The notes under the pieces are model-generated. The model searched no databases. It saw nothing but the letters and a program-made list of their open reading frames with translations, and was not told the origin of the DNA. Position numbers and translations under genes: made by a program. A stretch of DNA of 64,000 nt from Edaphochlamys debaryana (taxonomy: Eukaryota > Chlorophyta > Chlorophyceae > Chlamydomonadales), in assembly GCA_016858145.1 (NCBI GenBank), contig JAEHOE010000012.1, positions 1,178,001 to 1,242,000 of the forward strand, in the 5' to 3' direction. Position 1 is the first letter of the stretch, and every line of letters starts with the position of its first letter. Positions 26,487 through 59,731 of the stretch are shown one piece after another.

Positions 26487-29400
26487 ATGCACAGCTGGTG
26501 TTCATTGCGGCTTTGGGGCGCGCTTCGTCAACGCGCAGTTGCGGTGCCTTCCGCGACCGCGTTGTACCTCGCCTTGACGACAGCTTTATTGATAGCCATT
26601 ACCAGAGCAGGTACGCTGCTTGTTAGCACAGCGGGGACGGCGGCCTCCGAGAGTCTCGGCGTCCGGAACCGCGTCGCTCGCGTCGTTTGCTCTCCCGAGT
26701 CCCGACCCGAGCCGACTCCCGGCACGCACTAAGCTGTCGCCGCGCAGGCAAAGTGATGTGCGTTATGCCTATGTCCCTCGCCCTTCCAGGCGCCGTCCCA
26801 TGTGGTTCCACTGTCAAGTGCTACAATGACCCGGGCGCCATCTGCAACCTGGACGCCAAGGGATGGCCCGACTGTAGCATGTGGTGCGTGCGCTTTCAGG
26901 GGATAAAACGCTGTGGAGGGGTATCACCTCCGTTGCCTATGTCGGCAACACTTCCTGAGGAAAGCCGGTTGAACCCTCACCGTGCCGTGCCGTGCCGTGC
27001 CTGCCCTTGCCTGCCCGCAGCCCGCTGGGCAAGATCAAGGACAACACCAACCGCTGCTCATGTGGGTCTGCAGGGGTAAAAGCCAAATGCAATGCGAGTC
27101 TTTGCAGAGGCGCACCGCGGCATGACGCTGATCTGCCGTGCGCTGAGACCTGTTTCCCTTCCCCCAGCCGTCATCCTGCGCCTCCCCTTTGGCGCAACCT
27201 GCTCGAATGCGCGGACTGTGGGGTGTGCGGCCCGTTGCGGCCTGTACGCAGACAGTGGCACAGAAACTGGATGCTCGGGTAAGGCGGCCCCGGCGACCCG
27301 TCACACATGTCATGGCCATGCTCATTCCCTGAATGTCCTCCACGGAAGATATCTTGCTGGGGCCCTTTAGCCATGCTTTCCTTGCACTGAACCCCTTGGC
27401 TGTCCCGCCCCGCCCTGCCCGCCAGCGCTGCGCTCCCCCGGCAACTCGCACTACCTGCAGCTGGAGAGCAACGGCGCCCTGGTGCTGTACAAGAGCAACC
27501 CCAAGACCAAGGTTTGGGCCAGCAAGAACACGCCCCGCCCTTCGTGGCCCTGCCGCTGTTTGTGCTAAACCGGGACGGCAGCTGGACCGTGTGGGCGGCG
27601 CAGCAGCGGAGCGCCACGGGGCAACCCCTGCTCCAGAAGTGCACCACCGCTGGCGATGCTGCAGCCTTCGGCGTCAGCTTCTGGCGCCCGGAGCTGGCGG
27701 GCGTCGCCAACGGACCGTACACAGCGGTGAGGGGCCGAGCAGAAGAGGATACATCTATGCCGTGTGCACCGAAAGTAGCCATGCCAGGGCGGCCAGGCTG
27801 GGCGGGCCAGCTGGGCTGAGGGCCACCGCTTGTCCCCAACCGCCTGTGCGTGAGATGACCTGGAGACGCCACGAGCCGAATGTGCTTTTGCTCCTTGCCA
27901 GTCTGCCTGTTCGCCCCCTCGCCCCCCTCCCGAGCCCAGCACGTGCGTGACGACGGCTCCTGGGTGGTCCTCAACAAGCGGGCGGCGGCCGTGTGGGCCT
28001 CCTACAGCGGTGAGGGGCTGCTGGGTCCAGAGTATGGGGCCGAAGGTTGCCCTGGCGGCGAGCTGCTTGTCCATGTCTGTGGTCAGGCCCTGGAGGCCAA
28101 GGAGTGATTCCACGCTTCCTCTTCACGCCCGTTCCACCGCAGCGGGGCCGCTCACAGCGCCGCCCGAATGCCTCCCCAACATCACGCGGGCACAGGTGGG
28201 GGGGCAGGGGGCCAGACCTCAGCGCTGTGGAGTGCCGGGCCGGCCGTGTGGCCTCGCTCTGAGCGCTATGCAGGCAGAGCGTCCCCGACCTGAGTCCCGC
28301 CCGCCCGCTCACCGCAGGGCTGCAAGTTGCGCTGCGGGCTGTGGCACAGTCCTACCTCGGCGGCAGACGATGGCTGCAACAGTGAGCTAGGCGCTATGGT
28401 TGTGCGTGGCTTGGCTTGGGGTCAAGGGGATACACAGTACGGCCTGCCCCCTTACGCTGCCATCTGCTGCCAAACCCGTACACCGCTCCGCCCCGCCCCC
28501 ACTTCTGAACCAGGGCTCTGGTCTGCCAGCCGCACCACCTACCTCTCCCTGGAGGGCCCCGTGTCTTCGGGGTCCATCGTCCTGCGCAACGCCTCCAGCG
28601 GCGTGCGCTTCGCCGCCACCGCCCCCGGCGCCGACCTGCGGCTCATTACTCAGACGGCCGGCACGTGGACCGCTTACGTAATCAACGCCCTCAAGCAGCC
28701 GGTCGCCGTACGGGCGTCGCGCAGTACCACGGGCGTCACCGGCCTCAGCCGTACATACACAGCCAACGCGGGGCCCGCAAACGCGCCCTTCTCTCTGCAC
28801 GTGGTGGACACGGCGCGAGGCAATGCCGTACTGCTGAATAAGTACGGCAAAGTGGCATGGGCCACGTACGACGGTAAGGGGCCCGTGCCATATACAGCGC
28901 ACACTGGTGTGGCTGGCGAGCGTGCTAGGGCTAGGAGCTAGGCACGGGGTCCAACCGTCTTCCTTGCCGAATCCGCACCGCGCAGTCCAGCCGCCGTACA
29001 TACACTCAATCTGGTGCGGGGCAGAGGGGGAGGCCACGTTCGCCATTATTTACGACCCCGTGTACGACCTGTACCGCATCAAGTGAGGGGGGCAGCATCA
29101 GGTCCTTGCGGCGGTAGCAGTGCACGAGTGCAGCTTGCAACGGCAAAGGAGAACACCAAGCAACACGCGCTAGCTCCGTGTACTGTATACTGCTGCTCAA
29201 GCCTGGCCATCCCTGTCACCCGTGTCTGCTCCCGTACGTCGCCCTGCTGCGCAGGGGCTGGGGCTTCAACGGCGCGAGTGAGTAGAGGGGGGCTTAGGAG
29301 GGAGGCCTCAAGCCATACGGTACTTGTTGTACCCCCCCCCCCCCCCGCCCCCGCCTCCCCATACCCCGCCCCCGGCCTCACCTTTGATGCACCGCCCGCT

Positions 29401-32400
29401 TCGCCACGCCGCAGGCCAGTGCGGGCAGCCGGCCCTAGATGCCAACGGCACCCTGGTGCAGGAGTGGATCGGGGACAACCTGACGGAGATGGGCGACGCA
29501 CTGCCGTACATCGATCTGGGTACGGACGTCAACCGCCAGTACCCGCTTTCTGTCAAGGCGGTCGCGTCCGGCGAGTGGTGAGCTCCTGGGCGCTAGCCAT
29601 CTACCCAGGTCCCATGCCCATCCATGGGGGGGGGGAGCGGGAAGCCCTGGTTTGCCGTCGACAACACTGTGGATGCCTGTCCGATGCTGAGAGAGGCCAC
29701 AAGGCCCATGCCAATCTGTCAACTGCTAGGTATCTCCGATCACACCGAACAAGGGGGGCCGGGGCACGGTGGCTGACCCGAACGCACCCGCCCCGCTTTC
29801 CGGGCAGGCACTCCTGCGCCCTGACAAGCAACGGCCTGGTCAAGTGCTGGGGCGGAAGCGACATGCTACAGGTGGCTGCCTGGGTGGGAGAGGGGGGAAG
29901 GTGCCCGTAGGCACCCGGCTTGCAGGCAGATACGAAGACAGGCATAGCATAGGATGGGGGTTCCAGGCCTGTCCCGTCAACGCTCTGCTTGCCGCTCGTC
30001 CTCTCCCTGCAGCTCGGCTATGGCAGCTCCAACGCGTCTGTGGGGTCCAAGCCTGACCAGCTAGGGGACGCCCTTCCGCCGGTGGAGGTAGGCACTCACG
30101 GGGCGAGAAGCCAGCCAGGGCCTGAACCGGAGGGGTCTGACCTCAAGGCCAAGTAGACATGGAGCTGTATATTGAGGGATTTGACCTCAAGGCCAAGTAG
30201 ACTTGGAGTATGAGCTGGGCGTTTGCAAACACGGTGCGGACATGACGGCCTGTACATATCGGAGGGCCTTGGCTGGAGCAGTGCTTGGCGGCGCCAAGCG
30301 CTGCTGGTCCTATAACCATTCGCAACTGGCTGCACCGACATCCTTTCCATGCCTTCCCTCCCCATCAACACATACCCGCCGCTGCCCCACAAACTGCGCT
30401 TTCCACCACCCCCAACCCCGCACCCCGCCCTGCAGGTCAACTTCGCCTTCCCCGGAGGCGTTCGGGTAGTTACCGTGGCCACGGGGGACGAGCACACGTG
30501 CGTCATCGTGGAGCCCCTGCCGTACAATGGCATCACGCCGGCCCGGCGGCTGCGGTGCTGGGGCCAGAGCGCCTTTGGCCAGGCGGGGCCCCCCAACTCC
30601 ATGTGCAAGGGCTTCCCGCCCACGCCCTGTGTGGCTAACATTGCGTCCCAGCCGGACGTGGATGTGGGGCCCTTGTCACCCCGCATCGACGCCCTGTACG
30701 CGGGCTCGAGGCACACCTGCGTGGTCCTCAACGGCAACACCATCAGGTGCGTGGCTACGGCGGTAACTGGAGGGGGAGCGCTAAAGCCGCGTGGGACACG
30801 TGAATTAGAGGGGACACGGCCTGCTGTCTCCGCTTCATTCCATGCCATACGGCCTCAGCCGACAAGCCAGCCCTAGGAGGACAACCAAGAGCGGTAAGGC
30901 TCTCCACGAACCTCTGTTCCGTGTCCACTTGCTCAGCATTCCGCCGCGGGGTGGCCCGCCTCCCCGTCACCCCACCACAGGTGCTTTGGGGACAACAGCG
31001 ACGGCCAGGTGCGTGTGCGGCGAGGGCGGGAGCCGGAAGGGGTGCGCACTCGGCCAGGCGAGAAACACCGCACGACCGCAACCCCATGCCACGGCGTTTC
31101 TATGAATATTCTTCCCGCGCCCCTACCTCCCTCGCAGCTCGGCTACGGTGACATCCTGAGCCGGGGCCTCAACGCCTCCACCCTGGGCGTCCACCTGCTC
31201 AACGTCAACCTGGGCGGGCCCGTGTGGCGTGTGGTCAACATGGCCCTGGGGCAATGTGCGTACCTGGCATCCAGCGTGCAGGGTGTTCGCGGGGAGCGTT
31301 CTGTCGTCGTGCCGCCTCGATGGCGGGGGCCGGGCCGGAGGGGTTCCGTGGGGTTGCGGGGGTTCGGCAGAAGAGTGGTGCGTGGCCAGGTGTGGCAGAG
31401 GTGTCTTCACATGATTGAGTCCTCCCCGCGCGCTATGCTCCCCCGCAGCTCACACATGCGCCGCGTACCAAGCGACGTCGACTGGGGGCATGAAAGTAAA
31501 GTGAGCAGTTGCAATCGGGATGGGGAATGGGGGGATGGTGTAGGGCGGCTGTGTGACCGATCGGGCTGCTGACGAGCCCTGCGCTCTGCCGCAACTCCTG
31601 GCGACGCGCCTCGTAACCCCGGTTGCTCTCGCTGCTGTGCAACTGCGCAGGTGCTGGGGGTGAGTCCAGCTCAACGGTGCTGTGTGCAAGAGGTGACGCG
31701 TGGGGCCGTCGCAGAGGGTGGTGCGGGTGCAGCGTACCGTAGGGTGCACCATGGCCCCGAGATGGGCGTGCCTGGGCGCTGGGATGGGCTTGCCTATTCC
31801 ACCCTAATCCACGTGCCCGCCTGCCCGCCCCCGAAAGGAACAACCGCTGGGGCCAACTGGGCCTGGGCGACGCAGCGCCGCGCGGCAATACGCCCGGGAC
31901 CATGGGCCTCAACCTCACGGCGGTCAAGCTTCCCTGGGTTGACCAGGTCAACGACATGTGCGCCGGCTGGGGCTACACGTGAGTACTCACCTCGACCCGA
32001 AAGACCCTGGAGCTAGCCCAAAGCTATTAGCTCCCCTTCGCACGCGAACACGCACGCACGCGGTTTCACCCGTCTCCACGTACAGCCCACCGCATACACG
32101 CGCCCCCCGCTCCTGCCCCCCGCGCTCGCAGGTGCGTGCTGGGACGCCTGCGCGACAGCCTGCTGGAGGACAGGGTCTACTGCTGGGGCCGGCACAGCGC
32201 TCTGGGCATGGGCGGCCTCATCGACCACAACGCGACGCTGCCGGACGTGGGCGACGAGCCGGGGGACATGGGGCTGGCGCTGCGGGCGGTGCCGCTGGGG
32301 ACCAACCTGCTGCCCAAGAGCATTGCGTGTGGCTGGTCGGTGAGTGGGGCTGGGGGGGGGGGGAAGGCGCGGTGGAGGGGAGCGCAAGGGGTTGCCGCAG

Positions 32401-32847
32401 GAGGGGGCCGGAGAAGGGCAGCAGGGCGAGCAAGCGCTCCGGCTGGGGTGGGGAGCAGGCCTGTGTCTGTGCAAAATGCGCCTGGAAGCTACCAGTACCT
32501 GTCAGACCATTCCAATCGTCCCCTCCCTGCCCCCCACGCCCCCACCTCCTGGCAGCACTGGTGCGTCAAGCTGTACGACACTCTGGTGAGTCGTGCGGGT
32601 GCCTGAGCCGCGCTCATCCCTACACCGCAACATCTGCGCCGCCACCATGGCCCTTGCCACCCCGCCTGAGTCCATACCGCCCTGCCGCTGCGCGCTCCCA
32701 TCGCTCCAGGCCCGCGTGTACAGGGTCAAGTGCTTCGGCCAGGCGGGATCCACTGGGCAGGGCCTGCCGTACGGTTACAGCAGCTATGTGGGCGACGACT
32801 TCCTGGAGCTGGAAGCCCATGTGCCGTACACGAACCTGGGTGTGTAG
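26487..32847 (+). CDS. Predicted secreted B-lectin / RCC1-like propeller protein
   Basis: An unnamed extracellular-type protein of about 905 aa. Exons: 26487-26610, 26748-26883, 27021-27061, 27168-27278, 27426-27726, 27940-28009, 28143-28195, 28318-28381, 28514-28873, 28986-29082, 29255-29277, 29415-29577, 29808-29871, 30013-30087, 30436-30746, 30981-31008, 31138-31255, 31449-31500, 31651-31659, 31838-31978, 32132-32339, 32556-32585, 32710-32847. An in-frame TAA at 26481 fixes the start. Residues about 20-40 form a hydrophobic signal peptide or anchor (ATALYLALTTALLIAITRAG). A Cys-rich part and bulb-lectin-like segments follow (HYLQLESNGALVLYKSN, DDGSWVVLNKRAAAVWAS). Seven RCC1-type blades then carry paired cysteines (HSCALTSNGLVKCWG, HTCVVLNGNTIRCFG, VYCWGRHSALGMG). 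Exon 5 needs a one-base shift between about 27515 and 27560, or an extra weak intron (27511-27605). Ligand and role are unknown; adhesion or recognition is only inference. Confidence 0.75.
31651..31659 (+). other. Nine-base micro-exon encoding the C-W-G core of a blade
   Basis: GTGCTGGGG lies between a good acceptor (ACTGCGCAG) and a good donor (GTGAGT). Exon 31449-31500 ends GTA-AA and exon 31838 begins G-AAC-AAC. Inserting these nine bases gives V-K-C-W-G-N-N, which restores the blade motif found in all other repeats. Without it the blade loses K-C-W. Confidence 0.75.
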
Positions 32848-34904
32848 CCGTACGGCATGTACGGCAGCGGCAGGGGCGCGAGGCAGGAGCGGGTCGAGTT
32901 CTGAGCGGCCCAGGGCTGGGGGGCGGAACCTGGCGGCTGAGTAGAGGACGCGCGGGGTCCTTTCAGGCGTGTGAAGGCGCGTGGCAGCGCCGTGGGGAAC
33001 AGGTGCCAGTGCTTGAGGGCGGTGGGTGGGCGTCCACTGGAGGAGGTGTTCAGGAGCACGCAGCGTGGAAGATGAACTGCAACTGTGAGGGGGACCATCG
33101 GGCCATGCCTGCGCACGCCCGGGCCCCGGGGCCTCTCCTCAGGCTTGCCTGCTTGCCAGATGCCCAAGTGAGGAAGCAGACCTGGCTGATGTGCTGACGT
33201 GTTTAGTCCTTTGGGGGCCGTAGCTTGTCCACACAATTGAAGCGGCCAACCCAACGGGCCCCTGAACTGGCGTGGGCCTATTCTGCCTCATCTGGCGCGC
33301 ACGCCAGGGGGGGGGGTACAAACAAAGTTGCCCGATACCATGCCCCAAAGTCCCCCGACCCCCCGGGACCGACGACCGACCGACCCGTACAGTGTACGAC
33401 ACTGTCGTACAAGGCCTGTACGTACTCCACTTCATGCCTTTCGCGTTTCGCTGGACTGCGGACCGTGTGCTCTATCCATGGGCGCGCACAGCACTCCCGG
33501 TGGCCCACGTTGGTCGGGTACCATCAACCATGCCACGGACCCCGACCCGTCAATTGACCAACGGCTCGGCACCGAGGGGCGATATCAGGGCTTTAGTTTG
33601 CTAGTACTGTGCGATCTGAGGCGCGGGAGTGGAAGGCGGGCTTCCGGGAGCACCTGGGAGACGCCTTTGGGTGGCCGCGTGTGTGCCCGGGGCCCGGCAT
33701 GCCGACATGTCCCACCGGTCCCGACTCCCTAACACCGCAGGAAGGGTACCAGTGACTTGCCAGCATAAGTTCTTGCCATGCTGCATGCTCAGGGCGTGTG
33801 GTATGATGCTGGGCGCTGCTCTACGCCGCGGTGACAAAGTCCCGCCACACAGCCTCCCAAAGTCCCCCCACCCCCCCCGACCGACGACCGACCGAGAACT
33901 TTGGGCCCCCATAACTTTGCAATAAAACCTTCTTTTTTATTTCTGAAAGCGGATTTGGGATCCTCTCGGCAAGCTCTGTACAGATGAGGCATGATGTATG
34001 TCTGAGGAGGACCTACCCCCCCCCCTGCGCACGCGTGCAGGGCTCGAGGCTACGGGGCATAAGGGGGGAAGGGCTGGTAGGTGCGACTGCTTGCTCCTTC
34101 CTCCTTGGCACTATTAAAGGGCTTTGGTCCGAGGGGCCAATAGCCTCCGGGAAGTGCGTCGGGGGCGGGGGGCCGACTCGCAGGCTGTGGGCCAAGGTTG
34201 GTGGGCCTGCCTCGGCGTGCCTCCTTCGGCGTGACTCCGCCAGGCTCCTCCCAAGCTGTAGAAGACATCACTTGAAAATGCAGGCCGGACAAGCTTCCCC
34301 CCCTCCCTCGACGCGTCCAGGCACCTCCCGCCCCCCGCCCGCCCGAGCCCGCCTCGTCCCCATCAATACCCATCCATCCCCGCTCGCCATCCTCGGCAGG
34401 CTCGTTATCCAGGACAACCTTCCCCATCCTGCCCAGCCCCTTTGACGGAATGTGTTCGGCCTGCTACCGCCATCACGACCTTGCGCGCCTGACGGTCACG
34501 GACATCCAACCCATCCAGCATCCAGGCCCGGGCGCGCTCGCAGCGTTTCAACGATAGCTGGGTGCTTTTGACGATGTCACAAACCCCCAGACCAGCATTT
34601 GAGCCCCAAAGGTAGCTCGTGTGCAGAGGCTTACTCCTCCTCGGCACTTCCTCAGCGCTGGAGTGCCGATGGCTTCTCTGAGGCCACCTTTGAGGCGTTC
34701 CTCAGTCGTTTGGAAGTCCCCGGGGGCCCGTTTCGCAAGGGGAACCGCCTGTACGACCCCCATCGCGCGCGCGCAGTCCGTTTTGGGCCCTGGGCCGCGC
34801 CGAGACGGGGCCTTTGACCAGCTGAACCCACACGGGCAGCTTGGAATCACCCGCTCGACCCTTACCAGTATCTCTTAGGGTCTTTCCCCCCAAAAACTAC
34901 AAGA
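32848..34904. other. Repeat-bearing intergenic region, about 2 kb
   Basis: This is the 3' side of the lectin-propeller gene and the promoter of the DEAD-box gene. No TGTAA signal was found. It holds two copies of a 40-bp pyrimidine/GACCGACGACCG sequence (33343-33384 and 33856-33895), a perfect short palindrome (33394-33410) and a lower-GC stretch around 33.9 kb with an A/T-rich tail. An open segment at about 34441-34556 (FDGMCSACYRHHD, with a CxxC and His pair) has no recognisable partner exons. The mix suggests decayed transposon DNA; I cannot name a family. Confidence 0.5.
33343..33895. repeat. Direct repeat pair with CAAAGTCCCCC...GACCGACGACCGACCG core
   Basis: Copy 1 is 33343-33384 and copy 2 is 33856-33895, about 512 bp apart. 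They differ mainly in the length of the C run. Between them lies the palindrome GTACGACACTGTCGTAC (33394-33410). These may be the ends of a small non-autonomous element. Confidence 0.55.
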
Positions 34905-44634: not shown

Positions 44635-49611
<4,977 letters not shown>

Positions 49612-50620
49612 GCCAACCCGCCACGTGGGTCGGCGGCGGGGCCAGGCGCGGAGGCGCACTGGCTTGACCCCGGGACGTGTCTGCGTAGTCTGCGGAACAC
49701 GCCCTACGCCACAACCAAGCGCTTCGCTTCGTTGATGTCTTCTAACCCCGGGACGTGTTCAGGGGCGGACCCGGGGCGGACCCGGGGCGTGGGTGTGGCA
49801 CGGTGGGAGCGGTGCGGCGTGCTGGTGCGGGCAAAGGCGCGGCGCTGGAGCAGCTAGGTGGGGCGCAAGGAGGCGAGGAGGGGCGGAGTGCACGGTGTGG
49901 GGGGTGGAGAGGCGGGCGCGCATACTTGTTGCCGGGGAAGGTGGGGCCCACAGAGGCCGACTGCAGGAGGTGTGAGCAGGGATGTGCTGAGTGGGCTGGA
50001 CGAGGCCCGCGGTCATGACCGCAGCGGCGCCGAGCCATGTGGCCTGGAGGCAAGTCCGTGGCCGAGCCATGTGGCCGCGGCCGCGGATGTAATTCCTTAA
50101 CGAATGAGCGCGCGCCCGCCGCCCAGCCGGGGCCCGCCCTGTCGCCCGTCAGAGCGTGTGTCCGACCATCAGAATGCTCTCCCTTCTGTGTGGGCAGGCG
50201 CTTCCCTTGCTCGCCCGGCTGAGAGAAGCGGCAGCGCAATGCCCTTGACGAGTAACGAACACGCTTGCTTGCGGGCCGTGCCGACTCAAGTGCTCTCGGG
50301 ACTAAGAGTGTCCTCACTATCAACCCAGGTGGTTGTTGCGGGGCTTCGGCACCGCGCGGCGCCTCGCGACCCGCGCCGGTACGGACGCGAATGGCGGGCC
50401 TGCTTGCGCTTTGCGCGGCGCAGGTGTGGCGTGTCGCCCGCAAACCATCACCGCTGCACCAGTCGCTTGCATACAGCTCGTTACACCGATGATGCAGGCC
50501 AGACGAACGTCACGGGCAGTGTCGCGCGTCGACCGTTGCTCAAACTGAACACACGCTTACTGTGACGCCGCTGCATTGTTACCTAGATACATAACGCTAG
50601 TATTCTGCAGCCTGGATAGG
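49612..50620. other. Intergenic: katanin p60 3' UTR and SRCR gene promoter
   Basis: A TGTAA signal on the plus strand at 50088-50092 marks the likely end of the katanin p60 transcript (3' UTR about 480 nt). The remaining 530 bp, with lower GC near 50.55-50.62 kb, should be promoter and 5' UTR of the SRCR-propeller gene. I see no gene in it. Confidence 0.65.
50088..50092 (+). terminator. TGTAA poly(A) signal of katanin p60
   Basis: The plus-strand TGTAA lies about 477 nt after the katanin p60 stop codon. Confidence 0.7.
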
Positions 50621-53600
50621 ATGGGAGGCGCGGTTGCAATGTCTCGGGCTACGCATCCACTCCGGCGCACGCCCTTGCGACTGGTTCTTCTTTTAGCTTT
50701 AGGGGCGTTTCAAGCGTATGCCCAAGATGGTAAGTGATTTGCAATCGCGGGTACACTCTCTTGTTGCGCAGAGCACACGACCTTGCTCTAACTCCACGAT
50801 TGCCATCCACTCGGTAAACCGCGCGCCTGCCGCTCGCTCGAAGCCGCAGCCGAGGATCACTATGTAACCACATCCCCTATCGCATTGTGCTGGACTGCTC
50901 CGCAGGTCCCGCTTTGGTTCCGGGGCCAAGCCCGTCAGGGCCGACGGCAGCGGCGCAAGGCACATATCCGCCCCCGCCCGCGCCGACGCGCCCGCCCAAC
51001 CCATACCCTCCTCCTCCACAACCGCCCTCACCACCTCCCTCGCCGGCTCCCTCACCACCGCGGTAAGCACGGCCATCAGTCCTCAACAACCAAGCATGCG
51101 CTCGCCACCACGGCATGCGACAACCTCATGCTGTGTTGCTCACTTAGTTACTGCGGGTACTGCGGGCACGTGTAGCGTGCTAGCCACCTCAAACCCGCGA
51201 TGCGCAAGGCCGGCTTAGGCCCAGTGTGAAGTTTCCGTTGACGAGCCCTTCATCCTCTCCTCCTCGACCAGAAAACCGCCGTCTCCCAAGCCACCATCTC
51301 CCAAGCCGCCGGTGCCCAAGCCCCCGTCTCCCCGGCCGCCCACGCCGCGGCCCCCATCACCCTCGCCTCCGTCGCCTGTCCCTCCGCCCCCCGTGCGGCG
51401 GCCACCCCCTCCCTCACCCGCCCCCGTTCCGCGACCATCGCCTAAGATCCCGGATGCCAGCATCAACGGTGGATCCGGATTCAGCATAGTCACGTGGCGG
51501 TACAACACGGACGATCAGTCGTGGTCGGGATTCGGGCAAATGTCGCAGGATGCGCCCCTCATGCTGGGATACATATGGGCTGCCGTACCACGTGTCCTGG
51601 GGGTCGTACCAGGTGAGTGGCTAGGGACGGGACACTGGAGGCCCCGGCTTGGTCAAAGGGGGGGCAGGCAAGGGGCGTGGGCGGGCAAAGGGGAAGCCGG
51701 GCATCGCATTCGCCTGACCGCGAGGCCCGGTGCGCTCCCTCTTACTGCCGCGGCACCCGGACCCCACCGAACACCACACGGCCCACCCACGCCCCCTTCC
51801 ACAGCACCTTCCCAGCAGCTTCCGACTCCCCGGCAGCCCAGCCCCGCCACCCCAAACACGCCATCCCTTCCCCTTCCCCTTCTCCCCCCCCAACCTCCCT
51901 TCCGCCCCGTGCCCCACCCCCGCCCCAGTCTGCCTGCCGGGGCACGACGACACCATCGCCACCCTGGCCTGCCGCTCCGCCGGGTTCGTGTCGGGCCAGG
52001 CCGTGTTCACGTCCATGGGCTTCCCCGCGGTCAGCCGCCTGGACGCACCCGTCATCATCAACAGCCTGGCCTGCCCGGAGAAGGTGGGGGCGGGGGCACG
52101 TGGCAAGGGCCAAGGGAGCGGTAAAGGGGGGAAAAGGGGGGAGGGGAGAGGGGAGAGGGGGGCAAAGGTGGGGACGTTGTGGATGAGTGAAGGGGGAGGC
52201 CGTGTGAAACAGGCGGGCAGCGGCAAGGGGTGCGGCACGACACCTGGAGGCAAGAGGGAAGGCGGCCGAAGCTGGGGGCCTTGAGCGAGCTGACCGGCCT
52301 CCGACATTGTGTGTCATCTGCGTGCAGGCAAAGAGCATCGCGGACTGCAAGGCCAAGATCGTGGGCAGCGGCTTGGGGCAGTGCAAGAGCATTGCCGCCG
52401 TGCTGTGCAAGTTTGGTGGGTGGGGCTGTGGGTGCTGGAGGGGCTGAGAGGGGCGGGCGGCCAGAGGGGCCGGAACGCCACCGGCGGGAAGGAAAGGACG
52501 CGCGATGGGGACTGAGGGATGGGCGTGTGGACGTATGCCTCATGAAAAGGAAAGGGTGGACGGGAAGCAATACCAGGCACTACCTGAAGGCTGAAGCTGA
52601 AGTTGTCGTGTGCTCCGCGTTTGCAGGCGTGCCTCCGCCCCCGCCACCCTCGCCGCGGCCTCCACCGCCTCCGTCGCCGAACCCGCGGTCCCCATCTCCT
52701 CCTCCCCCCTTGCCCAACCCCCCTCGGGCTCCGCCGCCCAACCCCAAGCCCCCCAGCCCGAAGCCCCCCACGCCCAACCCGCCCAGCCCGTCGCCGCCGC
52801 TGCCCAGCCCGCCCTCCCCAGCGCCTCCCTACCCCCCGCCCCCGTCTCCCCCGCCGCCGTCTCCCCCTAGCCCACCGCCAAAGCCTCCCTCTCCCCCTCA
52901 CCCGCCCCCGCCCAGTCCCAACACTTGGGGTAAGATAGCAAGGACGGGGAGGGGCCCAGACAAACCAACTGTCGCAATGTATCAAGGGGTGCCGTGGGGA
53001 TGCAACCGAGGCTTGGAGGTCCGTGTTGCACGACTGGGGGCTGCGGAGCCGCCGCCTCAATCTTCCTAGACCGGGCAGCAACCCGCAGAGAGGGGCGGCA
53101 TGGGGGCCACATGCTGCGCCTGCAATGACTCACGTGACCGCATGCACGGTACGGCACCGCCCCCGCAGGCACCCCCGTGGAGGCGGTGTTCACGGGAGGG
53201 CGGCACACGTGCGCAGTGGCGGCAAGGGCGCTCAAGTGCTGGGGGTGAGGCGGAAGGCGGGGCCGGGGCGTAAGGTCGCGGGGCACGAGGCGGCGCTCGT
53301 TGGGACCAAACAGATCAGCTTGGAGCCGGTCTTGACTGGGCTGGGCGCAGCTGCCTCCGTCAGGTCAGGGGCTCAGGAGCCGTCCTCCTGCGGGGCTGGG
53401 ACCACGGGCTACACAAGCGTCTCTCCTTAGTCCTCACCTTACCTCGCAAAACCCTTTCGTGAAACCCCCAGCTCCAACGCCAACGGCGAGCTGGGCCTGG
53501 GCGATAAGTCCAACCGGGGCGATGCGCCCGGGGAGATGGCCGCGGCGCTGCCCCCCGTGGACGTGGGCGGGGGCCTGGCGGCCTCCGTGGTGGCCCCCGC

Positions 53601-56600
53601 CACGTCAGCCACGTGCGCCCTGCTGCAGCCGGGGGGCGTGGTCAAGTGCTGGGGGGTGAGGGGGGCGGGGGTGGAGCAGCAGGGCGGGGGGTGTGGTTGT
53701 GCTGGCGGAAGGGGGGGCTTCCAGGGGGCGGTCGGGGGTACGGTACAGGTACAGGTCCGTAAGCAGCAGGCAAGCAGGGGAGAAGAGAGAGGGGAAGGAA
53801 GGTGCTCTCGTCACGGCTCGTAGCGTGCGTGGGGGCTTCTGTGCCGTGTGGCAAGCTGTCTCACACCCTCACCTCCCAATCCCCTAGGTTCGCCGGGCTG
53901 GGCCCCACGTGGGTGGACCCGTGCTGTGTGGGCAACAACCCGGAGGAGATGGGCTCCGCGCTGCCGGTGCTGCAGCTGGGGGAGGGGCTCACGGCGGTGA
54001 GGGGGGGGGGGGGTCGCCGGGGGAGGGGGGGAGGGGGAGGGAAATGGGGAGGGGGAGGGGGTATCGGGAGGAAAAGGGTGGCGCCTGCGGGGTGAGCGTT
54101 CAGGTTGGGAGGGAGGAAGCTGAGGATGCCATGCAGGGGGCCTGGGACCATCTGTCGCAACGGGGCGGGGAGCTGGGAGCCTGGAAGCTCTACGGGCAGC
54201 TGGACTAGGGGGCTGGGCACTGCGTCCATCGAGCTCGAGGGAAGCATTGGAGGGGATTTGCGTGGGCGCTGACAGGGGGTGTGGTGGTGCAAAGGTTCCC
54301 TGGCTGATGCATCAACCGGGGGTATGCCACATCACGTCCGCTGCCCTCTTGCACCCCCATTTCCCCCCCCCCAGGTCCAGCTGGTGGGTGGATCCACGCA
54401 CTGGTGCGCGCTGCTGCAGCCGGGCGGCACCATCAAGTGCTGGGGGTGAGGCGGGACGGGGCGATGAGCCCGGCCAGTGATACGCCTGGTCAGGGCACCG
54501 CCAGTAGCAAACCGCGAGTCCGCTGCCGAGCTTCAGCTCCCGGCTTCCAGTCACCATCACAGCCACCCCGCGGCCCCTCCATTCCTACCGGAATGAGGCC
54601 TCAGATCAACCCATGGCGCCACCCTCCTGCCCTCTTTCCACTCCGCAGAGGCAACAGCCGCGGGCAGCTGGGCCGCGGCGACACCACGGCTGTGTACCCC
54701 CTCAAGGGGGACGTGGCCGCCGCCGCCGTGAACCTGGGGACGGGGGTGACTGCCTCTGCGGTGTTCGCTGGGGTGGACAACACGTGCGCCATCACGCAGC
54801 CGGGCAGCGTGGTCAAGTGCTGGGGGTGAGGCGGCAGGGCCAAGGGCAAGAGGGCAGGGGTGGTGGGCGATGGTGGTGGGAAACGGGCTGGATAAGGGGG
54901 GCTGGGGTCAGGTTGACAGGAAGTTCAACCACTTCAACCACCCCACCCTACCCAATGCAACCATTCTGCCTGCCAAAACCTTTCTTACTCCCGCAGCAAC
55001 AATGACGACAACCAGCTGGGGCTGGACGGCAACGCGCAGCCCTCGCGCGCCCGCATCGGCGACGCTGCCGCCGAGATGGGCGACGCCCTGCCCTCGTACG
55101 ACCTGGGCGCATGGGGCAGCGCTGAGTACCTGGCGATGGGGGACACGCTGACGTGCGCGCTGCTGCAGAGCGGGGAGGTGGTGTGCTGGGGGTGAGTGGA
55201 GGGTGGGGGGTGCTGGAGGGGGTGTGTTTGTTGCTGAGCGGGAATGCGCCGTCGCCGGGGTGCTGGAGGGGGGGCTGGGGGTAGAGGGGGATGGGGGCGG
55301 GCTGGAGGAGATTTGAGGGCGGGGAGGGGGGGGCCAGGCGGAGGGAAGGGCGTGGAGGGCAGGGTTTGGCGCATCAGAGGAAGAGACTGGCGGACGCGAA
55401 GAGACCGGGAAGGACACGGGCAAGAGGCGTCCGCCTGATGCCCTTACACCCCGCCCCCTCCCGTCTCCCCTCCCAACCAGCATCAACACGGACAACCGCC
55501 TGGGCCTGGACCTAGACCGGCGCGAGGCGGAGGTGAAATGCGGGGTGTGAGGGCGTGGGGGGGCAGGGGTCGGGTACCCGTACAGAGGCGGAAAAGACAG
55601 GGAGGAACTCTCATTCGGGCGGGCGTTACGTGGATAGTCGCAACTCGCAAGGCGGAGGAGGGGCGAACTCCTTTAGCGGGCCGCCCTCTCTTTTGAAGGA
55701 GACGCTGCTCCACCCACTGACATGCAACGCCCCGACGCCCCCGCAGGTCAAGATCCTGCTTGGGGATCCAGAGGCCGGCCCCACCGCCCCCGGCACCGTG
55801 GCCATGGGCCCCGTGGATCTTGGATCCAATCTCACCGCCACAGCACTGGCGGCGGGGCGGGGGCACGTGTGCGCGCTGCTGCAGCCCGGGGGCCGCGTCA
55901 AGTGCTGGGGGTGAGCGGGGGCGAGGGGGGAAAGAGGTCCAGAGGGCTGCGATAAGGCTGGACGGCCCAATACCCCACGCCGGCAAACGCCTGGCCTCCT
56001 CGCTGATCCCGACGCGCACCGGGTTGGCATCGACGCCTCACGACACCGCACGGCGCACCGACACCCCCACCCCTGCACCCATACATACCAACCCCGCAGG
56101 TCGTCCTCTCTGGAGGGGGAGCTTGGGCTGGGCGACCCCACCCCCCGCTTCGCCCCCGGCACCATGGGCAATGCCCTGCCCTTCGTGGACCTGGGCCCGG
56201 GCCTGGCCGCCTCCCAGATCACAGCCCACGAGTCGGTCACGTGCGCCCTGCTGCAGCCGGGTGGCGTGGTCAAGTGCTGGGGGTGAGCGGGGCGGGGGCG
56301 GAAATGATGCGGCTCCTGGGCTGGGCCCCTTGAGGGCACTGCAATCGCAGGGGTGGTAGAGCGGCAGGCCGGGCCGTCTTGAGGCTGGGGAAGGGGTTTA
56401 TACGCAGACTGAACTGTGTGCTTCGCCTTGTTATAACCTCGGTGCAGATTCAACCGCTGGGGCCAACTGGGTCAGGGCGATACCTTCAGCCGCGGCTCGC
56501 TGCCCTCGGACATGGGCCCCCGCCTGTTGGGGCTGGAGCTGGGGCCCTGGATGCCCATCGTGCACCCGCCCTCGCCGCCGCCGCCGCCGCCCAGCCCGCC

Positions 56601-59600
56601 GCCGCCGCCTCCGGTCGCTGGTGCGTGGGCTGCCAAGGCTTAGGTTTTGGGATGTCATGGTTGTCACCATCGGACGTCCCACAAAGTCGCTAGTAGTGCT
56701 GGCGCTGCAGGACGGAGTTGGTTTGGCTTGGTTATCGCGCTCGGGCTCAGTGTTGGTTGCGAGGCGGCTGGCCAAGGTGAAGCGCTGATCCCCCCGATGC
56801 CGCCACTCATTGCGCCACCGCAGAGAATGTGGCGAGCTTGGTGGCGGGGCGGCAGCACACGTGCGCGCTCGTGGCCGGGCGGATCAAGTGCTGGGGGTAA
56901 GCCGAGCTGACCGCAGCTTTGCCACGCTTGCGGCTCTGCGTCTGGAACCCAAACCCCAGTATCTCAGGCGCCAAAATTCAAGACTGTGCCTCCCCGTCCC
57001 CTCGCAGCGACAACGTGTTTGGGCAGCTGGGCCTGGGGGACATTGACAACCGGGGCGACGAGCCGGGGGAGATGGGCCCGGGCCTGCCCTGGGCCGACCT
57101 GGGCCCGGACCTGGTGGCGGACGCAGTGGTCGCCAACCACCGCCGGGCGGGCACGTGCGCCCTCTTCGGGGGCAGGGCCAAGTGCTGGGGGTGAGTTGGC
57201 GCCATGCGTGTGGCGCCGCGGTCACATGCCCGGAGGGGCCCAGGGGTGCGGTACACAGAGAGCGCGGACCCCACACCGCCATTGCCATGCCTACCGCATC
57301 GGCCCGCTGGCTTGGCCCCTACGCACCGGCCTCGCCGATTCGCTCGCCCAGCCTCGATCACCGCATCCCATCGGCTCCTCATCTCCCTCTCACCCCTCCT
57401 CCACCCTGTTTCGCCCCCCTGCAGCTCCAACGACAACGCCGAGCTGGGAATGACCACCGCCTTCCCCGTGGGCATATTCCGCACCGACCTGGGGTCCAAC
57501 CTCACCTTCATGGACCTGGGCTCGGGCCTGGCCGTGGCGCAGCTGGCGGCGGGGAAGACGCACGTGTGCGCGCTGCTGCAGCCCGGGGGCGTGGTCAAGT
57601 GCTGGGGGTGAGCGGGGCGGGGGCGGGGGGGAGCGAGGTTATCAGGGGGACGGGGTAGAGGACGGTAGGCGGAGGTTGGGGTTTCTCCGGAAGGGTGGAT
57701 CTGTGCGAGCGGCGAGGAGGGGAGAAGGGGCACTTTCGACTTCCCACTCCCAAGACACTGGTAGCCCGAATCCAAACTCCTTCCATTCGCCCGCGTGCGG
57801 CCCCCGCAGAGCCTCCAACAATGGCGCCCTGGGCTCTGGCGGCACCGCCACCATCGGGGCCGTCGCGGGGGAGATGGGCGACGGCCTCAGGCCGCTGGAC
57901 CTGGGGACCAGCCTGGCGGCGGTGCAGCTGGTGTCGGGGGAGGACCACAGGTGGGGGCGACCGGGCTGGTGTGTGTGTGGGGGGGGGGGGGGATGAGTCG
58001 TGGATGAGCCGACAGCCCTCGTTTCCCCTGCGCTGTGGCCTATGCCTAAGCGTCTTTCCCCCTGGCTGTGCACAGCTGCGCTCTGCTGGAGCCAGGGCCA
58101 ATCGTAAAGTGCTGGGGACTCAACCGCAACGGCCAGGTGTGTCTTGCGCGTGTGCTGCGCTGCGCTGCGGCTCAGCGTGGAGGGTCGGCCTGGTTGCCAC
58201 GGCCTCGTCCCCCTGCCCACCCACCTCTTGACCCCTCTCCCCCACGCTCCACCCACATCCCCTCCCACCTCTTCTCATGCACCTTCCCCACACCCGCTTG
58301 GCCCCGTCCTCCACCCTGCAGCTGGGCTACGGCGACACGGAGGACCGGGGCGACCAACCGGGGGAGATGGGGGACGCCCTGCCCGCCGTGGACCTGGGCT
58401 CCGGGCTCACGCCCCTGGCCCTGGCGGCGGGGGGGGAGCACACGTGCGCGCTGCTGGCCCCCGGCGGCGTGGTCAAGTGCTGGGGCTTCAACTCGTACGG
58501 GCAGCTGGGGCTGGGGGACCGGAACAGCCGCGGCGATGCGCCCGGGGAGATGGGCGACGCGCTGGTGAGTGGCCGCGGCCGGGGACCAGCAGGGAGGGGG
58601 GAGGTTGTGGCTGGTGCAGAGGCCGATTAATTGTGGTAGGGGTAGGCGAGAGTAAGGTTGGGTGGTGTCATGGCGTGAGAGACGCGGCCGCTGACAACCC
58701 TTTCTGAATCTGCGCGAACCTGAGGTCCCCTCTTGTCCCTTCCGCGCAGCCCGGCGTGTCCCTGGGCGCGGGTGTGGAGGTGGAGGCGGTGATAGCCTCC
58801 GACCACACGTGCGCGCTGCTCAAGGGCGGCAGCGTCAAGTGCTGGGGGTGAGAAGTCTGAGAACGATGGGCAGGCTGCTGGCCAGGAAGGCGCTGGGACC
58901 TGTGGAGAGCAGGGCAGGGTCCGCCTGAGGTTGAGGTTGTATCCGCGTGGCGGGGCAGCTAGTCAGCAAAGCGAGAGCCTGTGTTTGGATCCCCATTACT
59001 GCTTCTCCGCTTTCTCACTCCTGTCCTCCCTCCCTCCCTCACTCCCCCCAGTTTCAACCTGTACGGTCAGCTGGGCCTGGGCGATAAGGACAACCGCGGC
59101 GACGCACCCGGGGAGATGGGGGACTCCCTCGTGCCCCTGGACCTTGGGGAGGGCAACACAGCCACACAGGTGTGGCAGGGGTATGGGGGCTTGCCCTAGC
59201 TGTGTGCTTTGTAGCGGGGGCCTGCGGGCACGAGGCCAGTGTGAGAGGGCCGCACGTGCAGTCATGGTCAAGTTGAAGAGGCAGAGGTTGCGTTGACTTT
59301 TTGGCTTGGTGTCATGGTTGACCCTTCCTTTCTGTGCCCGTTCGTCTTCCCCAGGTGGCTCTGGGCTGGCTGCACACGTGCGCCCTGCTGCAGCCGGGGG
59401 GCAACGTCAAGTGCTGGGGGTGAGCGGGGCGGGGGTGGGGTGCGAGCCGGGAGGGCGGTCAGCAGGGGCCTGCGTAGCTGCGGCTTGGCCTGCTGGAGCA
59501 CAGATGCACGGTAGAGGAAGGGCTGCTGACTTGTGTGGATGGGCAGCATTGTGGACGTCCACGGCTCCGCGCCCTTACGCCCGTCCTCACACGTCCCTCC

Positions 59601-59731
59601 ACCCACGCCCCTGCCCCCCGCCTCCTCGCAGCCGCAATAGCAACGGTCAGTTGGGTCTCGGGGACGCCAGGGACCGAGGCACCACACCCGCTGACTCTCC
59701 CGCCAACCTGCCGTACATCGTGATCACGTGA
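50621..59731 (+). CDS. Secreted SRCR protein with two seven-blade RCC1-like propellers
   Basis: An unnamed extracellular protein of about 1266 aa. Exons: 50621-50729, 50906-51062, 51272-51612, 51929-52083, 52328-52415, 52627-52929, 53169-53244, 53472-53655, 53888-53996, 54375-54445, 54649-54825, 54997-55191, 55481-55532, 55747-55910, 56100-56282, 56448-56620, 56824-56896, 57008-57190, 57425-57607, 57810-57950, 58076-58136, 58322-58564, 58750-58847, 59052-59169, 59355-59419, 59632-59731. The signal peptide ends AYA-QD near residue 35. Then come a Pro-rich stretch, an SRCR domain at about 150-283 (LACRSAGFVSGQAVF, CKSIAAVLC), a pherophorin-like PPSP segment of 100 residues, and 14 blades with the pattern TCALLQPGGVVKCWG plus GQLGLGDxxNRGDxPGEMGD. 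A PPPPSPPPPPP linker in exon 16 divides them into exactly 7 + 7. Exon 8 seems to hold one extra G at 53651-53656. A cell-wall or cell-surface location is inferred; the ligand is unknown. Confidence 0.85.
51272..51470 (+). repeat. Proline-rich (KPPSP/PPSP) coding repeat, first block
   Basis: Exon 3 of the SRCR gene starts with tandem KPPSPKPPSPKPP-type codons, followed by PPSP runs, before the SRCR domain. This is the hydroxyproline-rich glycoprotein style of volvocine cell-wall proteins. Confidence 0.85.
52627..52929 (+). repeat. Proline-rich (PPPSP/PNPPSP) coding repeat, second block
   Basis: The whole of exon 6 of the SRCR gene codes for about 100 residues of PPPSP, PNPPSP and KPPSP repeats between the SRCR domain and the first propeller. 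It is likely a rigid, hydroxylated and glycosylated spacer. Confidence 0.9.

Follow-up and report, generated by a model that had tools for sequence, protein, structure and literature searches.

A green algal protein with an SRCR-like domain, proline-rich spacers and two predicted seven-blade RCC1-type propellers

Results

A gene on the + strand at 50621..59731 of a 64,000-nucleotide stretch of Edaphochlamys debaryana DNA (contig JAEHOE010000012.1, positions 1,178,001 to 1,242,000; hereafter the window) encodes a protein in which an SRCR-like domain, flanked by two proline-rich PPSP spacers, precedes 14 cysteine-containing blades that are predicted to form two seven-blade propellers of the RCC1 type, separated by a polyproline linker. 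This domain order was computed directly. With a probability of about 0.6 we regard the product as a hydroxyproline-rich binding protein that is secreted and associated with the wall or the surface, and that would act in the extracellular matrix as a multivalent module for recognition or adhesion.

The blade core C-x(8-10)-[KV]CWG is present 14 times (13 KCWG, one VCWG), seven times upstream and seven times downstream of the linker at residues 835-856, which agrees with the seven blades that the first-pass annotation had counted on each side of a PPPPSPPPPPP linker in exon 16. The cysteine pair claimed there for every blade was found in 14 of 14, with 8-10 residues between the cysteines. The three + frames of this span contain 15 core matches, of which 14 are the blades and one lies in a different frame, and the - strand contains none; 200 dinucleotide shuffles gave a mean of 0.2 cores and a maximum of 2. 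Propeller 1 (53169..56553, +; exons 7-16, approximately residues 386-834) has cores starting at 53210, 53614, 54405, 54785, 55154, 55870 and 56242. It is followed by the linker in exon 16 (56554..56620, +; PPSPPPPPPSPPPPPPV) and by propeller 2 (56824..59731, +; exons 17-26, approximately residues 857-1277), with cores starting at 56862, 57156, 57567, 58077, 58445, 58810 and 59379. The identity from blade to blade is low (29-66%). A recent duplication of a whole ring was considered and found no support: blades seven positions apart share 46.3% mean identity versus 45.5% for other pairs between the rings.

The AlphaFold2 (AF2) model gave 7 + 7 three-stranded blades, and each ring superposes on a seven-blade chain (UVR8, 364/372 residues; RCC1, 324/398 residues), so that the two closed seven-blade rings proposed earlier are recovered, in prediction. 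The nearest solved folds were UVR8, HERC2, HERC1, RPGR and RCC1; since these structure alignments were a second look at Foldseek matches, families missing from them may still be similar. The Pfam profiles agree with an RCC1-type propeller, as the first-pass annotation had expected from a domain search: RCC1_2 (PF13540) scored 216 bits against a cut-off of 22, WD40_RLD (PF25390) 297.7 against 150 and RCC1 155.9 against 21.7. The likeness to BLIP-II-type inhibitors is one of fold.

The SRCR-like domain (51450..52415, +; exons 3-5, approximately residues 149-284) contains cysteines at residues 204, 217, 251, 261, 273 and 281. All six stand in alignment columns with Cys in 11 or 12 of 12 sequences (one sequence, C104_1, lacks two of them), a pattern that we take to be that of SRCR group A. 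A local algal SRCR profile matched the domain with 47 bits (E 2.6e-15, among 21 gene models); it was built from ten matches to SRCR exons in this genome together with one SRCR domain of the C104 gene model described below, and is partly dependent on the query, because two of the ten exon matches (L024, L025) were found using this gene's own domain. The Pfam SRCR profile (PF00530) gave 25.9 bits (E 1.3e-5) for the domain alone and 21.5 bits (E 3e-4) for the whole protein, with a cut-off of 26.1. Because the score is just under the cut-off, we call the domain SRCR-like, of probable group-A type; the plain SRCR domain of the first-pass annotation is thus upheld by the cysteines and the local profile and falls short in Pfam. 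Against solved structures the sequence gave weak matches only (seven in all, best E 0.022), six of which are presumably to SRCR-bearing proteins.

Apart from two joints, the gene structure is computed: the coding span comprises 26 exons in one open frame of 1277 amino acids with GT-AG introns throughout (model A), the exon number given earlier for 50621..59731. A gene finder also returned 26 exons (1306 amino acids, differing from model A), a circular result since it had been trained on this very gene. In the database, the blade region was matched best by the annotated protein HYH03_004221 of E. debaryana (P0001, 1100 amino acids), which is 99% identical over the searched region and corresponds to residues 179-1277. 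Its UniRef name begins "SRCR domain-containing", its propellers are already recognised by Pfam, and it joins the SRCR part and the blades in one protein, as had been claimed for the gene. It differs from model A at the start (Met179) and by 11-12 residues at the junction of exons 8 and 9, so that the offset between the two numberings is 178 upstream and 177 downstream of this junction. Because the annotated protein starts at Met179, neither the signal-peptide-like N-terminus nor the first PPSP spacer is part of it, and both are read from the sequence only.

The exon 8/9 junction (53655..53888, +) has two solutions. With the donor after a run of six G (53655) and the obvious acceptor of exon 9 (53888), the reading frame is lost in exon 9; model A takes an acceptor 32 bases upstream of 53888, whereas the annotated protein reads as though a donor at 53690 was used. 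The upstream acceptor would account for 1277 residues in place of the 1266 stated in the first-pass annotation, whose span and exon number stand. An intron follows directly after CWG in 12 of the 14 blades (blades 11 and 12 have none), in phase 2 in 11 of these 12 cases and in phase 0, in model A, only in blade 2. Since blade 2 alone departs from phase 2, the likely cause, and the simplest reading of the junction, is a G run that differs in length by one base. With a phase-2 intron directly after CWG in 11 of 14 blades, the gene is a clear case of blade-by-exon structure. Exons 11, 12, 15, 18 and 19 (177-195 bases, within 53169-59731) each carry one whole repeat and are in phase 2 at both ends; such exons are a plausible route for the gain of blades.

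Exon 1 (50621..50729, +) encodes a hydrophobic, signal-peptide-like stretch (LRLVLLLALGAFQAYA). The first PPSP spacer (50906..51449, +) covers exons 2-3 and approximately residues 37-148; the second (52627..52929, +) lies in exon 6, residues 284-385, and is joined to blade 1 in frame by splicing. The proline-rich runs measure 12, 79, 68, 31 and 22 residues (about 210 in all), and their PPSP and SP(n) segments are of the kind found in hydroxyproline-rich glycoproteins. Of the order proposed previously, signal peptide, SRCR domain and PPSP spacer, the spacers and the SRCR-like domain stand, and the signal peptide is suggested by hydropathy, outside the annotated protein.

The 141.9 Mb assembly was scanned for similar loci and gave at least 125 SRCR exon-level matches and at least 63 RCC1_2 matches. 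Twenty other blade or RCC1_2 loci were taken, in 22 pieces, leaving out many further RCC1_2 matches on, for example, C2, C8, C120, C123 and C183; the gene models of these loci are rough and run into neighbouring genes. Three of them (C3:402-420 kb, C104:222-232 kb, C73:43-53 kb) contain SRCR-like exons and Cys-CWG blades on the same strand. The rough models of C3 and C104 scored 137.7 and 180.2 bits for SRCR and 80.7 and 123.6 bits for RCC1_2, respectively. Each has six recognisable cores and, as judged by eye, a seventh that is degenerate or was missed. In contrast to the gene described here, these crude models carry two or three stretches that Pfam recognises as SRCR, together with a single ring and a C-terminus that is long and rich in repeats. 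At C73 an SRCR match (E 1.1e-4) lies on the blade strand, and the gene model left it and the blades unjoined. Among the models of the remaining 17 loci, no SRCR match was convincing (best E 0.047). Proline-rich tracts were present on the same strand in 9 of the 19 taken loci with at least two cores. SRCR-propeller fusions thus seem to recur in the E. debaryana genome.

Some of these loci have features of their own. Past the ring, the C3 (L027 and L030) and C104 (L028) models contain long Gly/Ala/Ser-rich repeats that by eye resemble a right-handed beta-helix, for which no Pfam match was found at E ≤ 0.01. At C139:37001-53000 (+; L043, L048), ten Cys-CWG cores show a start motif that occurs repeatedly (C[TA]LWSGRLKCWG followed by C[IV]IVQPGGxVKCWG); this is perhaps a second double-ring gene. 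Two seven-core loci with proline tracts (L038 on C121, L039 on C37) are closely similar and have four of seven core strings identical, which suggests a recent duplication.

A search with the blade region matched 7730 proteins, and the following statements rest on the best 120 of these. Exactly 14 cores were found in 91 of the 120, HYH03_004221 included, a count that is biased by the query itself having 14. In the 90 such proteins among the 119 others, the spacing from core 7 to core 8 had a mean of 71.9 residues (s.d. 25.9, median 61) and exceeded 72 in 23%, whereas the other twelve spacings had means of 59.8-60.3 (s.d. 0.6-1.7) and never exceeded 72; added linkers therefore occur only after core 7. 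The seventh gap was the longest in 41 of the 90, and about half, as the median indicates, have no added linker there. This spacing appears to give independent support for the 7 + 7 split and is less biased by the query than the 14-core count.

Identity was 38-48% for 54 chosen relatives. The bacterial 14-core proteins, among them some from Bdellovibrio, Acidimicrobiales, Ilumatobacter and Myxococcota, share the 60-residue repeat CWGxNxxGQLGxGDxxxRGDxxGEMGDxLPxVDLG with the E. debaryana protein. Among 60 proteins examined for proline tracts, P0001 and P0013 alone had any. P0013 (EukProt gene17434-23737_t, 1983 amino acids) has 28 cores arranged as four sevens with proline-rich linkers between them; unlike the E. 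debaryana protein it has no SRCR label, and its C-terminus shows by eye a hydrophobic stretch and a basic tail, which suggests a membrane anchor.

None of the best 120 proteins, P0001 included, carried the Pfam SRCR label, and a search with the SRCR-like region identified HYH03_004221 alone among 95 candidates. Searches with the blade region, the SRCR-like region and the C104 model together listed 235 distinct proteins, and no protein among them carried both SRCR and RCC1 labels; for the C104 query, none among the best 120 is a weak negative, as no E. debaryana protein was listed. The label test can miss SRCR-RCC1 fusions, given that HYH03_004221 itself is listed without an SRCR label, and an orthologue would escape the blade-region search if it ranked below the best 120, fell outside the length limits or lacked annotation.

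Elsewhere in the window, a second gene with RCC1_2 repeats is located some 20 kb upstream of this gene, likewise on the + strand (28942-33000, +; cores at 29815 and 32689); two of its open frames score 24.5 and 34.7 bits for RCC1_2. The exons just upstream of the gene (47912-49664, +) encode an AAA ATPase (PF00004, 55.9 bits; AAA_lid_3, 43.2 bits) that may be katanin-like.

Discussion

Each part of the protein is of a known kind. The closest likeness for cysteine-paired propellers outside the cell is the CRINKLY4 (CR4/ACR4) ectodomain (PDB 7a0k, 7a0j), an extracellular propeller of seven C-x10-CWG repeats in which cysteine pairing within the repeat is thought likely; a passage of PMC4617170 describes the C(X10)CWG of the crinkly repeats as thought to form disulfides and mentions kinase-less CR4-like proteins in Chlorella and Micromonas. 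The seven-repeat arrangement is present here twice, 8-10 residues separating the cysteines of a pair, and its site is probably extracellular. However, CR4 has one ring of repeats of about 39 residues with TNFR, transmembrane and kinase parts, whereas the E. debaryana protein has two rings of repeats of about 60 residues, an SRCR-like domain and PPSP rods, and no kinase was found. Because neither the TNFR-like domain nor the kinase gave a Pfam match at E ≤ 1 and, by hydropathy, nothing downstream of residue 40 was clearly transmembrane, we do not class the protein as a CR4 member.

Algal SRCR proteins offer the second comparison. Excerpts of the literature report more than 20 SRCR proteins in C. 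reinhardtii, with lectin and putative hydroxyproline-rich domains (PMC6704257), six scavenger receptors in its mating ectosomes (PMC6919629), and SRCR domains in some of its polyproline-bearing PKD2-like proteins (PMC11015965). The most expanded orthogroup of E. debaryana is given as SRCR/C-type lectin with 16 genes, and green-algal SRCR proteins have been proposed, with no ligand named, to act in immunity or chemoreception (both in parts of PMC8226300). Like the SRCR and SRCR-C-type-lectin proteins described in these parts of PMC6704257 and PMC8226300, the protein combines SRCR, putative hydroxyproline-rich segments and another binding domain; unlike in algal SRCR proteins, this second domain is a pair of propellers and not a lectin or a transient receptor potential channel. 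We found no description of SRCR and RCC1 in one protein, nor any of CWG-type RCC1 proteins in Chlamydomonadales, in the full-text literature under open licence, and as regards the combination the novelty claimed by the first-pass annotation holds. It needs qualifying, since most of the gene is in databases under an SRCR name, cysteine-paired seven-repeat propellers are known from CRINKLY4, rings split by polyproline exist in P0013 and 14-core relatives are frequent.

We propose that the single SRCR-like domain and the two propellers would be kept apart by stiff polyproline rods. The propellers would be rigid seven-blade discs, with a disulfide that probably stabilises every blade from within. 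The PPSP segments would anchor the protein in the wall or lengthen it. Ligands, for example glycoproteins, peptides or surface molecules of microbes, may bind to the faces of the discs and to the SRCR-like domain, and the propellers would stand where lectin domains are reported next to SRCR in Chlamydomonas. We infer here that the protein is secreted, disulfide-bonded and glycosylated on hydroxyproline, as well as its location and ligands and hence its role in surface recognition or adhesion. Several observations weigh against this proposal. The signal-peptide-like character of exon 1 comes from hydropathy alone, and the exon is missing from the annotated protein. No obvious membrane anchor was found beyond residue 40, where hydropathy over 19 residues reaches at most 1.7 (at residue 187, as the SRCR-like domain begins), so that surface attachment is an assumption. 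The SRCR score stays below the Pfam cut-off. In the AF2 model a predicted TM-score (pTM) of 0.57 means that there is no prediction of how the domains lie relative to one another, and residues 1-205 of P0001 are mostly below 50 in the predicted local distance difference test (pLDDT), so that the model, made with an alignment chosen for the blades and without SRCR proteins, is uninformative for the SRCR-like part.

The main rival is a purely structural wall component, with the SRCR-like domain and propellers serving as rigid spacers or cross-link sites without specific recognition. The roughly 210 residues in proline-rich runs and the same-strand proline-rich tracts of nearly half of the taken loci with at least two cores speak for such a role, which we nevertheless consider unlikely, because from general knowledge SRCR domains and RCC1-type propellers usually bind proteins or ligands and the diversity of the blades exceeds what an inert spacer would need. 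The chance is smaller still that an SRCR-PPSP gene and a propeller gene were falsely fused, or that the frame is broken at exon 8/9: this junction does call for a splice site that is unusual or for a difference of one base, and the annotation and model A resolve it differently, but exon 6 runs in frame into blade 1, the annotated protein joins both parts too, SRCR precedes the blades on a single strand at two other loci, and RNA-seq and BRAKER were, according to a passage of PMC8226300, used for the E. debaryana annotation as a whole. An intracellular RCC1-type regulator with an unusual N-terminus (a Ran exchange factor or UVR8-like protein) is very improbable. The closeness in fold to UVR8, HERC2, HERC1, RPGR and RCC1 speaks for it but shows no function, and the hydrophobic N-terminus, PPSP spacers, SRCR-like domain and cysteine pair in each blade point outside the cell.

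As a surface-associated binding protein, the product would belong to a wider E. debaryana set of SRCR-propeller and proline-rich propeller genes. We tentatively speculate, at less than even odds, that E. debaryana and perhaps related algae possess a family of SRCR-propeller surface receptors, in which animal-type SRCR domains and bacterial-type 60-residue Cys-CWG propellers, in one or two rings, are carried on hydroxyproline rods as a diversified system of pattern or cell recognition parallel to the SRCR-C-type-lectin proteins. The recurrent fusion of SRCR with a CRINKLY4-like propeller would provide a concrete and testable candidate set of algal surface receptors.
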